Under the pieces are notes generated by a model. That model saw only the letters and a program-made list of their open reading frames with translations. It did not search any database and was not told where the DNA came from. Of a stretch of DNA of 64,000 nucleotides, positions 49,387 to 54,540 are shown piece after piece (position 1 is the first letter of the stretch; each line of letters begins with the position of its first letter). The DNA comes from Oscillospiraceae bacterium. Lineage in GTDB: Bacteria; Bacillota; Clostridia; Oscillospirales; Oscillospiraceae. Made by a program: the position numbers and the translations under genes. The stretch covers positions 1 to 64,000 of the forward strand of contig JAFTXW010000011.1 of the NCBI GenBank assembly GCA_017461445.1. The letters are read 5' to 3'.

Positions 49387-50085
49387 TTAACCGCCCAGAT
49401 AGGCTTTTTTGACGGCATCGGAGCTTGCCAGCTCCGCGCCGGTGCCTGCCAGGGTGATGCTGCCGGTTTCCAGAACGTAGGCCCGGTCAGCCACCTGCAG
49501 AGCCTTGCGTGCATTCTGCTCGACCAGCAGAATGGTGGTGCCTGCCTTGTGCAGCTCCTTGATGATATCGAAGATCTGATCCACCAGGATGGGAGCCAGA
49601 CCCATGGAGGGCTCGTCCAGCATCATCAGCTTAGGATGGGACATCAGTGCCCGGGACATGGCAAGCATCTGCTGCTCGCCGCCGGAGAGGGTGCCCGCGA
49701 TCTGCTTGCGCCGCTCCTTCAGGCGGGGGAAGTAGTTGAATACCATTTCCAGATCCTTCTGGGAGACTTCCTTATTGATGTACGCACCCATTTCCAGGTT
49801 CTCCTGAACGGTCATCTGCAGGAAGATGCGCCGTCCCTCGGGGACGTGGGCAAGGCCGGTGCGCAGCAGCTTATAGGCTTCGGCATGGGCAATATCCTGG
49901 CCGCAGAAGCTGATCTTACCGCTGCGGGGGTGCATCAAGCCGGAAACGGTTTTCAGAATGGTGCTCTTGCCCGCGCCGTTGGCACCGATCAGGGCGACGA
50001 TCTCGCCCTCACCCACCTCAAAGGAAACGCCCTTGATGGCGTGGATGGCACCGTAGTACACATGGATATCTTCAATTTTCAGCAT
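49387..50085 (-). CDS. livF: Branched-chain amino acid ABC transporter ATPase LivF
   Basis: A 232-residue ATPase with Walker A GANGAGKST, LSGGEQQMLAMSRALM, Walker B LMMLDEPSMGLAP and H-loop VEQN, the LivF-specific variant. HVPEGRRIFLQMTVQENLEM is typical of the family. It powers uptake of leucine, isoleucine and valine with LivG. It lies 2 bases after livG and ends the operon before the terminator at 49349. Confidence 0.96.
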   Translation of the reverse strand: MLKIEDIHVYYGAIHAIKGVSFEVGEGEIVALIGANGAGKSTILKTVSGLMHPRSGKISFCGQDIAHAEAYKLLRTGLAHVPEGRRIFLQMTVQENLEMGAYINKEVSQKDLEMVFNYFPRLKERRKQIAGTLSGGEQQMLAMSRALMSHPKLMMLDEPSMGLAPILVDQIFDIIKELHKAGTTILLVEQNARKALQVADRAYVLETGSITLAGTGAELASSDAVKKAYLGG

Positions 50086-50087
50086 AC

Positions 50088-50930
50088 TTACTCACCATCC
50101 TCCTTGCCCAGGTAGGCTTCAATAACGGCAGGATTCTGCCGGATCTCTTCGGGGGTGCCCTTGGCGATGATACGGCCGTAGTTGACCACCGCGATGGCCT
50201 CACAGACGTTCATAACCAGGTTCATATCGTGCTCGATCAGGAAAATCGCAATGTGGAAGGTATCCCGGATGCGGCGGATCTGGTGCATCAGCTCCATAGT
50301 CTCGCTGGGGTTCATGCCTGCAGCGGGCTCGTCCAGCAGGATGATGGAGGGATTGGTCGCCAGGGCACGGACGATCTCCAGACGACGTTGAACGCCGTAA
50401 GGAAGGCTGCCCGCCTTCACATTGGCAACATCCGCCAGGCCCATGAAATCCAGCAGCTCCATTGCCTTCTCATTGGCTGCCTTTTCTGCCTTATGATAAG
50501 AGGGCAGGTGCAGCAGGCTGGATACGAAGGAGCACTTGATCTCGTTGTGCATACCCACCTTTACGTTGTCCAGAGCGGTCATCTCAGAGAACAGGCGGAT
50601 ATTCTGGAAGGTACGGGCGATGCCCAGCTTGTTCACCTTGTGGGTGGGCATACCCTTGGTATCGATGCCGTTGATCAGCACAGAACCGCGGGTAGGCTGG
50701 TACACGCCGGTCAGCAGGTTAAAGATGGTGGTTTTGCCCGCGCCGTTGGGGCCAATGAGGCCGGAGATCTCGGTGGGGCCGATGGTGATGTTGAAGCTGT
50801 CCACAGCGGTCAGGCCGCCGAAGTCGATGCCCAGGTTGCGGACATCCAGAACGGGCAGCTTGCCCATATCCTGCTCGCGCAGCAGGTTATAGGTGGGGAC
50901 CTTCAGCATTTTTCTGCTGTATTCATTCAT
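50088..50930 (-). CDS. livG: Branched-chain amino acid ABC transporter ATPase LivG
   Basis: A 280-residue ATPase with GPNGAGKTT, LPYGVQRRLEIVRALA (the LivG form of the signature), Walker B IILLDEPAAGMNP and H-loop IEHD. The about 30-residue N-terminal lead (NEYSRKMLKVPTYNLL) is longer than in E. coli, but the ATG at 50930 has AAGGAGG 9 bases upstream, so it is kept. It overlaps the livM stop by 8 bases. Confidence 0.95.
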   Translation of the reverse strand: MNEYSRKMLKVPTYNLLREQDMGKLPVLDVRNLGIDFGGLTAVDSFNITIGPTEISGLIGPNGAGKTTIFNLLTGVYQPTRGSVLINGIDTKGMPTHKVNKLGIARTFQNIRLFSEMTALDNVKVGMHNEIKCSFVSSLLHLPSYHKAEKAANEKAMELLDFMGLADVANVKAGSLPYGVQRRLEIVRALATNPSIILLDEPAAGMNPSETMELMHQIRRIRDTFHIAIFLIEHDMNLVMNVCEAIAVVNYGRIIAKGTPEEIRQNPAVIEAYLGKEDGE

Positions 50931-51996
50931 TGGTGCCCACCTCCTTCTTCTTGAAAATGCCGCCGAGCTTAGCGGTAACCACGGACATGATTTCCTTCAC
51001 CTTGGGAGACCAGGTGAACAGCATGACGAGGATCAGGACAACGGCGTACAGGATCATGCGGTAGTCCGCAAGGCCGCGCATGGCCTCAGGCAGGACATAC
51101 AGCACCGTCGCGGAAATGACGGAGCCCAGGATGTTGCCCATGCCGCCAAGAACAACGAACACCAGAATGTCGATGGAGGTATTGAAGCCGAACTTGGAGG
51201 CAGAGACGGCGGAGTAGTTCAGGCCGTACAGCGCGCCTGCCATGCCTGCCAGGAACGCGGAGACCACGAAGGCCTTCATACGGAAGGCGGTAACATTGAT
51301 GCCAACGGATTCAGCAGCAATACGGTTATCCCGGACAGCCTTGATGGCGCGGCCCTCCTTGGAGTTGATCAGATTCAGCACCACGAACAGGGTGAAGAGG
51401 ATCAGCAGAAAGCCGGCGAAGAAGGTGGAGAGCTTCTGGACACCGGTGGCACCCAGCGCGCCGCTGAGGATCACCTTGCCGCCTGCACCCAGGTGCAGCT
51501 CCGCCTGGCTCAGGGCCACGCGGATACCGGTTTCATCCTTGCCGATATACAGGTTGCCGATGATGTTTTTCAGGATCTCGCCAAAGGCCAGGGTGACGAT
51601 CGCAAGATAGTCGCCACGCAGGCGGAGAACAGGCACACCGACGATCACGCCCGCGATACCGGCCACCACGCCGCCCACCAGGAGGGCAGCCATCAGACGG
51701 CCGAAGTCACTGTCCACCACGCCCTGAAGGCAGGCGGCGGTGACGATACCCGCAAAGGCACCGACGCCCATGAAGCCTGCATGGCCCAGGCTCAGCTCGC
51801 CGGAGATGCCGACCACCAGGTTCAATGACACGGCCAGCACAATGTAAGCGCAGATGGGAACCAGGTAGCCGTTAACGCTGCGGGACAGCATATCCGCATT
51901 GGACAGATATTGCATGACCACATAAGCGATGATAACGATGCCATAGGTGGCGATGTTATAGGAATGGGTTTTGAAATACTGTTTGATCTTATTCAT
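50923..51996 (-). CDS. livM: Branched-chain amino acid ABC transporter permease LivM
   Basis: A 357-residue permease with about nine membrane segments. SLNLVVGISGELSLGHAGFM, LRLRGDYLAIVTLAFGEI, GRAIKAVRDNRIAAESVGIN and LGGMGNILGSVISATVLYVL are LivM hallmarks. It forms the membrane channel with LivH. The start lies 10 bases after the livH stop on the shared transcript. Confidence 0.95.
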   Translation of the reverse strand: MNKIKQYFKTHSYNIATYGIVIIAYVVMQYLSNADMLSRSVNGYLVPICAYIVLAVSLNLVVGISGELSLGHAGFMGVGAFAGIVTAACLQGVVDSDFGRLMAALLVGGVVAGIAGVIVGVPVLRLRGDYLAIVTLAFGEILKNIIGNLYIGKDETGIRVALSQAELHLGAGGKVILSGALGATGVQKLSTFFAGFLLILFTLFVVLNLINSKEGRAIKAVRDNRIAAESVGINVTAFRMKAFVVSAFLAGMAGALYGLNYSAVSASKFGFNTSIDILVFVVLGGMGNILGSVISATVLYVLPEAMRGLADYRMILYAVVLILVMLFTWSPKVKEIMSVVTAKLGGIFKKKEVGTNE

Positions 51997-52005
51997 ATGG
52001 CCACC

Positions 52006-52887
52006 TTACACTTTCTCCTGCACGACCTTGCCCATCAGACCGGCGGGCTTGACCAGCAGAACAACGATCAGCACCAGGAACACGATGGCATCGCTGAACT
52101 GGGTGGAGAGATAGGCCTTGGTCATGGTCTCGATGATACCGAGCAAAATGCCGCCCAGCATAGCACCGGGGATGGAGCCGATACCGCCAAAAACAGCTGC
52201 GGTAAAGGCGCGGATACCGGGCATGGAGCCGGTGGTAGGCTGGAGGGTAGGCACCGTAGAGCACAGCAGCACGCCCGCGATGGCAGCCAGAGCAGAGCCG
52301 ATGGCAAAGGTCATGGAAATGGTCTGGTTCACGTTGATGCCCATCAGCTGGGCAGCAGCCCGGTCCTCGGACACGGCACGCATGGCCTTGCCCATCCGGG
52401 TCTTGCCGGTGAACAGGGTCAAGGCAACCATGATGACGACAGAGGCAAGGATGGTAATGATGACCTCACCGGTGATGGTCAGCTGGCCGCCGAAGAGCTT
52501 GATAGGGGCAAAGGTGACGATGCTGGTGAAATTCTTGGGTGCGGAACCCCAGATCAGCTGGGCAGCGTTCTGCAGGAAGTAGCTGACACCGATGGCAGTA
52601 ATCAGAACTGCCAGGCTGGATGCGCCCCGGAGGGGCTTGTAGGCCAGGCCCTCGATGATGATGCCCAGAACGGTACACACCACCATAGCCACCAAGATGC
52701 CCACAACAGCAGGCAGGCCTAAGTAATTGGTCACACAGAAGGACATGTACGCACCCACCATGATAACGTCACCGTGGGCGAAGTTCAGCATCTTGGCAAT
52801 GCCATAGACCATGGTATAGCCCAAGGCGATGATGGCATAGACGGAACCGATGCTGATGCCGTTGATTAAGTATTGAAGAAAACCCAC
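52006..52887 (-). CDS. livH: Branched-chain amino acid ABC transporter permease LivH
   Basis: A 293-residue permease. The start is taken as GTG at 52887 (MGFLQYLINGISIGSVYAII) because GAGAGGGAAG precedes it; the longer open frame upstream runs through strong hairpins and looks non-coding. ALGYTMVYGIAKMLNFAHGD, RAVSEDRAAAQLMGINVNQT and FGGIGSIPGAMLGGILLG are LivH signatures. About eight membrane segments. Confidence 0.93.
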   Translation of the reverse strand: MGFLQYLINGISIGSVYAIIALGYTMVYGIAKMLNFAHGDVIMVGAYMSFCVTNYLGLPAVVGILVAMVVCTVLGIIIEGLAYKPLRGASSLAVLITAIGVSYFLQNAAQLIWGSAPKNFTSIVTFAPIKLFGGQLTITGEVIITILASVVIMVALTLFTGKTRMGKAMRAVSEDRAAAQLMGINVNQTISMTFAIGSALAAIAGVLLCSTVPTLQPTTGSMPGIRAFTAAVFGGIGSIPGAMLGGILLGIIETMTKAYLSTQFSDAIVFLVLIVVLLVKPAGLMGKVVQEKV

Positions 52888-52906
52888 TTTTCTTCCCTCT
52901 CTTTCC

Positions 52907-52993
52907 CGACAGTCTATGACAGCACCCCGTCTTGGGGATGCTCTCATGGACTGTCGATAGTAACACAGGAGCCGGATGGGGTTTCCCCCATCC
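52907..52993 (-). other. Two strong hairpins between livJ and livH
   Basis: CGACAGTC (52907-52914) pairs with GACTGTCG (52949-52956), with inner ATGA/TCAT and AGCACCCC/GGGG-TGCT arms, giving a long imperfect stem. GGATGGGG (52974-52981) pairs with CCCCATCC (52986-52993). Neither is followed by a T-run. They may protect the livJ mRNA end and so raise binding-protein levels over the permeases. Confidence 0.65.
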
Positions 52994-53038
52994 AGCTGCC
53001 GTGAATTCATGTATTTCAGTATACCATATCCTGTCGGA

Positions 53039-54232
53039 TTATTCAACACCAACGTACACGCCGTTCTCAATCTTGACAGCCATGGGCAGCTTGGAAACCG
53101 CGCCGTCAGCAGCCCAGGTCATGCCGTCGCCGGTCAGGCCATCAAAGCTCATAGAGGTGAACTGGGCGATCATAGTCTCGCAGATCTCCTCTGCGCTCAT
53201 GTCAGCAGTGACACCGGCAGCGGTGCAGGCCTGGTAGATGGCGTAAGCAACGTCGTAAGCGTCAGCAGCAAACTGGTTGGGCTCCAGGCCGAACTTTGCG
53301 GTGTAGTTCGCTACGAATTCCTGGGTCTGGGGATCGGAGGAGCTGGCGTCGAAGGGAGTCAGCAGCATAACGCCTTCAGCCAGAGCAGGGTCAAAGCCCT
53401 CGGTTGCCAGGATGCCGTCCAGGCCGTCGCAGCCGAAGAAGGCGGGGTTGTAGTCGATCTTGTCAGCGCAGGTCAGAACCTGAGCAGCCTCAGCGGCATA
53501 GATGGGCAGGAATACCAGATCGCAGCCAGCCTCCTGGCACTTGGTGACCTGAGTGGACAGGTCGGCCTTGTTGTCAGCGGTGAAAGCTTCCTCAGCAACA
53601 ACTTCCAGACCGACGACAGCAGCCTGCTCCATGAACTTGGTATAGATGCCGACGGAGTAGGGGTTGGAGGAATCGTAGATAACGCCAACCTTGGTAGCCA
53701 GGTTGTGGGAAGAAATGAAGTCTGCGGAGCCGACGCCCTGGTTGGGGTCGGTGAAGCAAATCTGGAACACGTTGTCACCGGCGGTGATAACGGCAGCATC
53801 GGATGCGGAGGGAGTCAGCATGAACACACCATCAGCGGCGCACTCAGCAGCGGCAGCGGCAGCGGAGCCGGAGGTGGTGGGGCCGGCCATGATCTGCATG
53901 CCCCAGTCCATCAGGGTGTTGTAGGCGTTGACGGCCATCTCAGCGTCAGCCTCGTCGTCCTCGACACGCAGTTCGAACTGCAAACCGCCCAGAGCGTTGA
54001 TCTCTTCAAAGGCCAGGGTCAGGCCGTACTCAACAGCCTTGCCATAAACAGCGTAGTCGTTGGTCAGGGGGCCGCTGGAGCCGATCTTGATGGTACCGGC
54101 AGTGGGAGCGGCATCGGTAGCGGGGGCTTCGCCACCGGCAGCATCGGTAGCGGGGGTCTCGGCGGAGCCGCAGCCAGCGAACATGGTGACCACCATCAGG
54201 GCAGCCATCAGCAGAGCAAATAACTTCTTCAT
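53039..54232 (-). CDS. livJ: Branched-chain amino acid ABC transporter substrate-binding lipoprotein LivJ
   Basis: A 397-residue periplasmic-binding-fold type I protein. The signal and lipobox end in MFAGC (Cys21). An Ala/Thr/Asp-rich linker precedes the domain, which begins IKIGSSGPLTNDYAVYGKAV. QFELRVEDDEADAEMAVNAY and GVIYDSSNPYSVGIYTKFME are typical. It captures Leu/Ile/Val outside the membrane. AAAGGAGACCTAATT precedes the ATG. Only 32 bases separate it from a terminator hairpin, so transcription must read through that hairpin from the promoter at 54512-54540. Confidence 0.95.
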   Translation of the reverse strand: MKKLFALLMAALMVVTMFAGCGSAETPATDAAGGEAPATDAAPTAGTIKIGSSGPLTNDYAVYGKAVEYGLTLAFEEINALGGLQFELRVEDDEADAEMAVNAYNTLMDWGMQIMAGPTTSGSAAAAAAECAADGVFMLTPSASDAAVITAGDNVFQICFTDPNQGVGSADFISSHNLATKVGVIYDSSNPYSVGIYTKFMEQAAVVGLEVVAEEAFTADNKADLSTQVTKCQEAGCDLVFLPIYAAEAAQVLTCADKIDYNPAFFGCDGLDGILATEGFDPALAEGVMLLTPFDASSSDPQTQEFVANYTAKFGLEPNQFAADAYDVAYAIYQACTAAGVTADMSAEEICETMIAQFTSMSFDGLTGDGMTWAADGAVSKLPMAVKIENGVYVGVE

Positions 54233-54264: not shown

Positions 54265-54327
54265 AAAAAAGCGGTCACGGGAATTTCCGTAACCGTTTTT
54301 CCATACAAAATTGGATTCCCGGTTACG
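54265..54327 (-). promoter_or_regulatory. Terminator/antiterminator attenuator upstream of livJ
   Basis: On the minus strand CGGTTACGG (54287-54295) pairs with CCGTGACCG (54272-54280), followed by TTTTTT (54265-54270), forming a terminator. Just after the leader ORF stop, CGTAACCG (54320-54327) is complementary to the terminator's left arm (CGGTTACG). The overlapping CGGGAAT (54315-54321) is complementary to ATTCCCG (54278-54284) in its loop and right arm. Either pairing would block the terminator. Confidence 0.65.
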
Positions 54328-54480
54328 TTACAGCGGAATAACTCGCAGGCAAATAACGCAAATGGACACTACCGCAATAATGGCAGTGTCCAGAATGGGA
54401 ATAATTCGCGCAGAGGAACATGCCGCTGCGCAGGAACAGCAGTTGGCGGTGAACTTGTGAGAAGAAAACCGTGCAGCCAT
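54328..54480 (-). CDS. Probable leader peptide of the liv operon (50 aa), rich in Ile/Val/Leu
   Basis: The frame begins MAARFSSHKFTANCCSCAAA at 54480 (AAGGAGG 9 bases upstream; an ATG two codons earlier is too close). Of the last 25 residues, 15 are Ile, Val or Leu. It stops exactly where the antiterminator strand begins. This resembles the leader peptides of ilv/leu operons, whose translation senses charged tRNA for branched-chain amino acids. The alternative is a small Cys-rich membrane protein, since a membrane helix is also rich in these residues. The position directly before a terminator and livJ favours the first view. Confidence 0.55.
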   Translation of the reverse strand: MAARFSSHKFTANCCSCAAACSSARIIPILDTAIIAVVSICVICLRVIPL

Positions 54481-54511
54481 GGTCATGTACCTCCTTGTTG
54501 AATGTGTCCAT

Positions 54512-54540
54512 ATTGTATCTCTCAGAAAGACATTTGTCAA
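54512..54540 (-). promoter_or_regulatory. Promoter of the liv leader and operon
   Basis: On the minus strand TTGACA (54535-54540), a 17-base spacer and TACAAT (54512-54517). The start point would be near 54505, about 25 bases before the leader ATG. Confidence 0.85.

Follow-up and report, generated by a model that had tools for sequence, protein, structure and literature searches.

The minus strand of the window (the whole 64,000-nucleotide stretch of DNA analyzed here) contains, in this order, a sigma-A-type promoter, a ribosome-binding site (RBS), a leader open reading frame (ORF), a terminator, and a livJ-like gene. The genome that contains the window (2.66 Mb, 61 contigs) is, as we infer, close to Faecousia, a genus of Oscillospiraceae (Clostridia). 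The features are as follows.

54535..54540, minus strand: -35 box, TTGACA
54512..54517, minus strand: -10 box, TACAAT, with a 17-base spacer from the -35 box; conserved in relatives
54490..54496, minus strand: RBS of the leader ORF, AAGGAGG; RBS and start retained in relatives
54328..54486, minus strand: leader peptide ORF, 52 amino acids (aa) from the first ATG, with a tail rich in isoleucine, leucine, and valine (I/L/V)
54363..54392, minus strand: in-ORF hairpin P2, 11 bp, TGGACACTGCC-8 nt-GGTAGTGTCCA; conserved in the genus
54312..54327, minus strand: antiterminator strand 2, composed of CGTAACCG (54320-54327) and an apical TCCA (54312-54315)
54287..54303, minus strand: apical TGGA (54300-54303) and strand 3, CGGTTACGG (54287-54295), common to the antiterminator and the terminator
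54265..54280, minus strand: terminator strand 4, CCGTGACCG (54272-54280), and six T (54265-54270)
53039..54232, minus strand: livJ-like substrate-binding protein gene (NCBIfam NF011933, E 2.5e-27, under the curated cut-off)
52006..52887, minus strand: livH-like permease gene (NF008011, E 3.4e-74, under the curated cut-off)
50923..51996, minus strand: livM-like permease gene (NF008450, E 2.4e-51, under the curated cut-off)
50088..50930, minus strand: livG-like ATPase gene (NF008449, E 1.1e-95, under the curated cut-off)
49387..50085, minus strand: livF-like ATPase gene (NF008626, E 2.6e-86, under the curated cut-off)

A sequence-only reading of this DNA had proposed a leader-peptide attenuator upstream of livJ. 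The consensus promoter on which it relied was borne out (TTGACA, 17 bases, TACAAT), and a recount confirmed that 15 of the last 25 leader residues are I, L, or V. The terminator was likewise found as described, with arms CGGTTACGG (54295-54287) and CCGTGACCG (54280-54272) and a six-T run ending 32 bases 5' of the livJ ATG at 54232. The ORF had been given 50 codons, which is correct from the ATG at 54480 and becomes 52 aa from the first ATG. Immediately 3' of the leader TAA lies CGTAACCG, fully complementary to CGGTTACG; the pairing claimed for CGTAACCG and the left terminator arm thus stands, whereas that of CGGGAAT with the loop and right arm is not the shared helix. In relatives, a second helix closes the antiterminator itself, and it corresponds in the window to TCCA (54315-54312) with TGGA (54303-54300) and mostly to TTC/GAA elsewhere. 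Fold z-scores of -6.5 for the terminator and -6.1 for the 139-nt leader, together with the recurrence in relatives, place this layout beyond chance. We also observed that the promoter spacer is conserved besides the -35 and -10 boxes (TTGACAAATGTccttcnntGaGATACAAT; window 54512-54540 and relatives, partly also in loci lacking the leader); it is possibly an operator.

The best models for the downstream genes were those of livJ, livH, livM, livG, and livF, in the order livJHMGF. Since these models matched best but all below their curated cut-offs, we call the genes liv-type, with a presumed branched-chain substrate. In the livJ-livH gap (window 52890-53036, about 150 bases), inverted repeats are visible by eye (GGATGGGG...CCCCATCC and GACAGTC...GACTGTC) and are perhaps an mRNA-stability element. 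A search of the whole window with Rfam at gathering thresholds gave no match, hence none to RF00230, and on this ground we rejected a T-box, a riboswitch, or another known RNA at the leader. Elsewhere in the genome we found 12 T-box matches, 5 of them above the curated cut-off and some duplicated across contigs, with none on the contig of the window. Among the genes identified 3' of these T-boxes are valS, ilvA (threonine ammonia-lyase), and a partial gene whose best match is ileS; ilvC is also present in the genome. With T-boxes at ileS, valS, and ilvA in the same genome, the liv leader appears to be a different solution, with a different sensor.

We then looked into the occurrence of the leader within the genus. 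A blastn search recovered it from 17 of 61 same-genus genomes, its own included, and a covariance model built from 16 of the loci found in this way matched in 51 of 136 genus genomes, 65 of which carry livJ at E ≤ 1e-60. Both a leader match and livJ were present in 48 genomes, and the module is counted in 47/65 once G514, whose leader (L089) has a broken ORF, is excluded. The 18 livJ genomes without a counted module comprise 11 leaderless loci with the same promoter, the broken ORF of G514/L089, one locus at a contig edge (L148), two with another I/L/V-rich ORF (L154 and L157), and three where nothing was recognized (L152, L156, and L158). The promoter block TTGACAAATGT...GATACAAT recurs in 43/43 leaders with no more than two changes, 273 to 346 bases from livJ, and the 11 leaderless loci have the same promoter 88 to 165 bases from livJ, no leader ORF, and in some cases terminator remnants (L145 and L149). 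As the promoter is constant and the leader present or absent, the leader comes and goes between promoter and livJ, not always cleanly. In L145, the leader ORF is gone and a terminator-like hairpin with a T-run persists upstream of livJ, on the livJ side of the promoter; this livJ might therefore be under permanent attenuation. A pattern search for P2 over genome contigs returned 24 stretches. livJ accompanies 23 of these, among them L109, which is identical with locus L037; the remaining stretch, L108, is at a sequence edge and counts neither way. The records include "Candidatus Faecousia intestinavium," "Candidatus F. faecavium," and metagenome-assembled genomes titled Oscillospiraceae, Clostridia, Eubacteriales, or other broad names, and these titles are the ground on which we place the window near Faecousia. 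Three matches within the genus lie without livJ (L090, L091, and L092, from G052, the second match of G453, and G488, respectively).

Each of the 43 distinct leaders that contain P2 has an ORF with its own RBS-like motif, running in the reading frame that P2 sets. The loop of P2 is 8 nt long in 31 of them and 5 nt in 12, a difference of exactly one codon. The peptide continues after P2 with a tail of 7 to 16 residues in same-genus leaders. The 43-leader counts leave out L034, L037, and L042 (out-of-genus loci described below), L059/L160 (livJ start not parsed; the aligned leader region equals L005), and L081 (livJ start mis-parsed, leader present). After grouping at 75% identity into 32 clusters, I/L/V codons make up 178/365 (48.8%) of the tails, compared with 21.4% over six largely soluble window proteins and 30.9% over three membrane ones, these nine being the source of all background compositions. 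The two other forward frames of the tails contain 15.8% and 9.7% I/L/V. Base-shuffled tails had 96 ± 8 such codons, and 0/2,000 shuffles attained 178, a significance that, like that of the Fisher test reported below, is overstated since the sequences are related and the 75% clustering merely lessens this effect. Methionine, tryptophan, alanine, and glycine, for which a membrane peptide would have room as well, are not enriched in the tails and phenylalanine barely so (4.1 versus 3.5%), whereas cysteine (7.4%) and arginine (7.9%) exceed their shares in the soluble proteins of the window (1.6% and 4.3%), the cysteine excess being due in part to a conserved ATTTGCG. A few tails are poor in I/L/V (L006, 3/9; L014, 2/10; L017, 1/6; L018, 3/12; L078, 2/8). 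ATT, GTA, and TTG are commoner in the tails than in the genes of the window, which make little use of GTA and ATT, in a comparison that pools species and that base composition may partly explain.

We examined how the peptide evolves in 11 close pairs from 7 groups and obtained pN/pS values of 0.69 before P2, 0.52 over P2, and 0.91 in the tail, which implies that the tail is not preserved as a protein sequence. Conservation of the peptide for reasons other than its I/L/V content, which had been named beforehand as an argument against attenuation, was thus not seen in this genus. These data bear on the view that the leader ORF encodes a small functional protein, perhaps in the membrane, and that the hairpin is an ordinary partial terminator before livJ. 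The end of the peptide is indeed hydrophobic, and ORFs upstream of livJ in other genera reach 67 to 98 aa with a 30-residue stretch averaging 62% I/L/V. However, the tail in this genus is merely 7 to 16 residues long and includes arginine in 31/43 leaders, its pN/pS is close to 1, its apolar excess lies in I, L, and V, the stop codon falls on or near the antiterminator strand, and a Pfam search with the 52-aa peptide gave no match at E ≤ 1. We regard a small membrane protein as a weak explanation in this genus, and a very improbable one for the window, and as a possible one for the longer ORFs of other genera.

Next to the peptide, the RNA is conserved. In an alignment of 44 distinct sequences, P2 is paired in 98.1% of cells and the terminator in 92.9%, and the two together have 48 doubly changed cells versus 7.5 in shuffles, above all 500 shuffles. 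For the antiterminator helix, the paired share is 88.8%, with some divergent rows misaligned in this region. Its covariation, which the sequence-only reading had proposed as a check, came out positive by score (0.244 versus 0.197) and by doubly changed cells (15 versus 7.9), both above all 500 shuffles, but not by doubly changed pairs, with no excess over shuffles (3 versus 2.9); we consider the covariation of this helix modest. In 40 of 45 aligned leaders, the lowest-energy fold pairs strand 3 with the post-stop region through at least four core pairs, the five with fewer being L018, L019, L053, L064, and L070. On average, the antiterminator stretch folds at -11.0 kcal/mol and the terminator at -13.6 kcal/mol. 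In 40 leaders, pairing begins at a base between -4 and +10 relative to the stop, where the lower limit is set by our folds, which start 4 nt before the stop, and where the first pair of L017 belongs to another small hairpin and the fold of L071 is cut short; L082, L083, and L085 were left out of this count. The stop is thus on or near the antiterminator strand. Taken together, a frame and an I/L/V content kept while the peptide drifts, the antiterminator fold, and the placement of the stop argue in favor of the proposed attenuator, as far as sequence comparison can tell.

P2 is conserved in sequence besides its pairing, with changes on both sides in just 3/11 pairs, as might be expected if a ligand or an RNA-binding protein recognized P2 and its neighbors and the ORF were incidental. 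Against such a switch, P2 lies within an ORF that is kept in frame, and it is absent from L079, L080, and L087, which retain the ORF, the I/L/V-rich tail, and the antiterminator; P2 is therefore dispensable. As Rfam also gave no family in the window, we give a riboswitch or protein-operated switch scarcely any weight, slightly less than a small membrane protein.

We then modeled how the position of a ribosome would affect the switch. The quantity scored was the probability, by RNA folding, of the antiterminator before strand 4 exists. For the window, the antiterminator probability was 0.99 with no ribosome, 0.95 to 1.00 for stalls at codons -16 to -4 relative to the stop with 1.00 at -6, 0.87 at -3, 0.48 at -2, and 0 with the ribosome at -1 or on the stop. 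Across 42 leaders (L085 being left out, as it has no pair with the terminator arm under our rule), a ribosome at codon -6 left the antiterminator at 0.5 or more in 36, and a ribosome on the stop did so in 1 (L017, unresponsive); the six below 0.5 at codon -6 were L053, L064, L070, L075, L076, and L083. The claim that stalling frees the antiterminator strand and that translation to the stop covers it is thus supported as a predicted behavior of most leaders. With no ribosome, at least 0.5 was reached in 31/42, so that read-through is the predicted default. Attenuators of the trp type have a protector (1:2) hairpin, through which untranslated transcripts terminate by default; the folds without a ribosome indicate that no such hairpin is conserved in the liv leader, and untranslated transcripts should, according to the model, read through. 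At full length and at equilibrium, the terminator of the window wins at every ribosome position tested, which means that the switch must be kinetic and decided during transcription.

The I/L/V codons are positioned in accordance with this prediction. From codon -1 to codon -11, their share is 19, 31, 34, 44, 59, 72, 39, 74, 52, 68, and 70%, which amounts to 123/200 at -5 to -11 versus 41/128 at -1 to -4 (Fisher 2.8e-7, overstated as noted above). I/L/V is richer at -5 to -11 than at -1 to -4 in 25 of the 32 clusters, and 7 have the opposite. If the leading edge of the ribosome is placed 12 nt 3' of the first base in the A site, as in E. coli toeprints, a stall at -5 or earlier would free a strand that begins at the stop, and a stall closer to the stop would start to mask it. 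The profile tracks this limit, which was set independently of it. The window's own ORF has two I/V codons at -3 and -4, close to the limit. At -7, we noticed an arginine codon in 13/31 clusters (L003 and relatives, often as CTGCGAATT by eye), resembling CGCGAATT before P2; CTGCGAATT and CGCGAATT could pair with the ATTTGCG after P2. An attenuator sensing another signal, such as cysteine, arginine, or the general rate of translation, would draw on the cysteine and arginine excesses and on the arginine at -7, but I/L/V codons outnumber these by far in their excess and follow the ribosome geometry, the downstream operon looks like a branched-chain transporter, and the cysteine excess partly reflects ATTTGCG, which makes this the least probable of the alternatives.

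We consider it very probable that the leader is a ribosome-mediated transcription attenuator that couples expression of the liv operon to the charging of tRNA-Ile, tRNA-Leu, and tRNA-Val. Sequence comparison shows the ORF, its codon bias, both hairpins, and their placement relative to the stop; that the ORF is translated, that ribosomes stall on it, and which way the operon responds are inferred. Transcription would begin upstream of the 52-codon leader ORF. When branched-chain amino acids (BCAA) are short, a ribosome would stall on I/L/V codons about five or more codons before the stop, leaving strand 2 free to pair with strand 3 upon its transcription and allowing read-through into livJHMGF. 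When they are ample, the ribosome at the stop would mask strand 2, and the terminator 3:4 would form. P2 would probably act as a pause hairpin, holding the polymerase in register with the ribosome.

We also searched beyond the genus, with filters in the multi-genome searches that are stricter and lose weak matches. At E ≤ 0.001, model R1 gave matches from 12 of 400 family genomes, including three that share the genus of the window; at E ≤ 1e-4, the matches came from 5 of 295 order genomes, including two of that genus. Among the nine out-of-genus family matches, three (L034, L037, and L042) precede a livJ homologue; L037 and L042 have a P2-like hairpin by pattern and L034 by eye, and their ORFs are unlike that of the Faecousia leader. 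The loci of the other six (L036 and L038 to L041, and L043) contain no livJ homologue. On inspection, L036, L230, and L231 resemble plain terminators or coding sequence and were rejected as leaders, and the inspected out-of-genus matches other than L034, L037, and L042 look like chance.

A survey of other genera covered 67 livJ upstream regions, top matches first and then picked down the list, from 148 livJ-bearing genomes among 300 family genomes. In 17 clear cases and a weak one (L214), a long ORF of 67 to 98 aa, extremely rich in I/L/V in the clear cases, ends before a strong terminator (L164, L168, L171, L172, L174, L179, L183, L184, L187 to L190, L194, L196, L202, L220, and L225), six of these loci being from one genus. 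The best 30-residue stretch of the 17 long ORFs averages 62% I/L/V versus 45% for the 15 best stretches of the three window membrane proteins. By eye, the long ORFs have in common with the Faecousia leader a front rich in serine, alanine, and cysteine as well as a D(A/T)..(A)S motif; inspection by eye and folding revealed no common 2:3 antiterminator pairing among them. They may be attenuator leaders of greater length, or small proteins of the membrane. One could go further and picture the Faecousia leader as the trimmed form of an Oscillospiraceae-wide device, in which the nascent chain of the long peptide is possibly inserted in the membrane, stalling reads both tRNA charging and the state of the membrane or transporter, and P2 is a second, RNA-level input; we think this unlikely. 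In another genus, three loci (L199, L207, and L210) have an unrelated-looking ORF of 39 to 40 aa upstream of livJ, followed by a terminator; these ORFs are alike and share the C terminus VGVxAxxPF.

The 43 distinct leaders offer an unusually direct test of attenuation theory, as the control codons stand where the predicted footprint of the ribosome would place them, and leaderless relatives with the same promoter, found in nature, are available for comparison. The leaders also provide an annotation clue, I/L/V-rich peptides favoring BCAA as what these liv-type transporters carry. In the portions of the literature available to us, leader-peptide attenuation of BCAA genes concerns biosynthesis operons and leuS; here, an attenuator appears to govern uptake with high affinity in gut Clostridia.

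We found no description of a liv leader peptide in the open-access literature, in agreement with the earlier statement that none is described in Clostridia. Leader-peptide attenuation of ilv/leu biosynthesis, Gram-positive cases included, is covered by six papers available to us in part (PMC5794164, PMC6123439, PMC10272879, PMC1262725, PMC2494555, and PMC8632094), which also contain candidate trp, cys, and leuS leaders in Actinobacteria and upstream ORF (uORF) motifs at other genes. The E. coli leaders of ilvGMEDA, ilvBN, and leuABCD, as reviewed in the accessible part of PMC6123439, share with the liv leader a BCAA-rich peptide and mutually exclusive hairpins but precede biosynthesis operons in a Gram-negative bacterium. 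The Corynebacterium ilvB-II uORF motif, in the sections at hand of PMC10272879, likewise combines an I/L/V-enriched uORF, an antiterminator, a terminator, and length changes by whole codons; unlike the liv leader, it is actinobacterial, belongs to a biosynthesis gene (ilvB), and has a peptide of usually 15 to 17 aa. T-boxes at BCAA genes, as well as at symporters and transporters, occur in Firmicutes including Clostridia according to the available text of PMC2494555; like the liv leader, they let a tRNA-charging signal control a terminator before BCAA genes, but they read the tRNA directly. The leucine-rich attenuator peptide of Staphylococcus aureus ilvD-leu, as presented in the available text of PMC5794164, differs from the liv leader in controlling biosynthesis instead of uptake and in coming from another bacterial family, and a P2-like hairpin within the ORF goes unmentioned in that text; as here, it belongs to the Bacillota and has a BCAA-rich leader ORF, a terminator, and a predicted antiterminator, for which regulation by ribosome stalling was likewise proposed.
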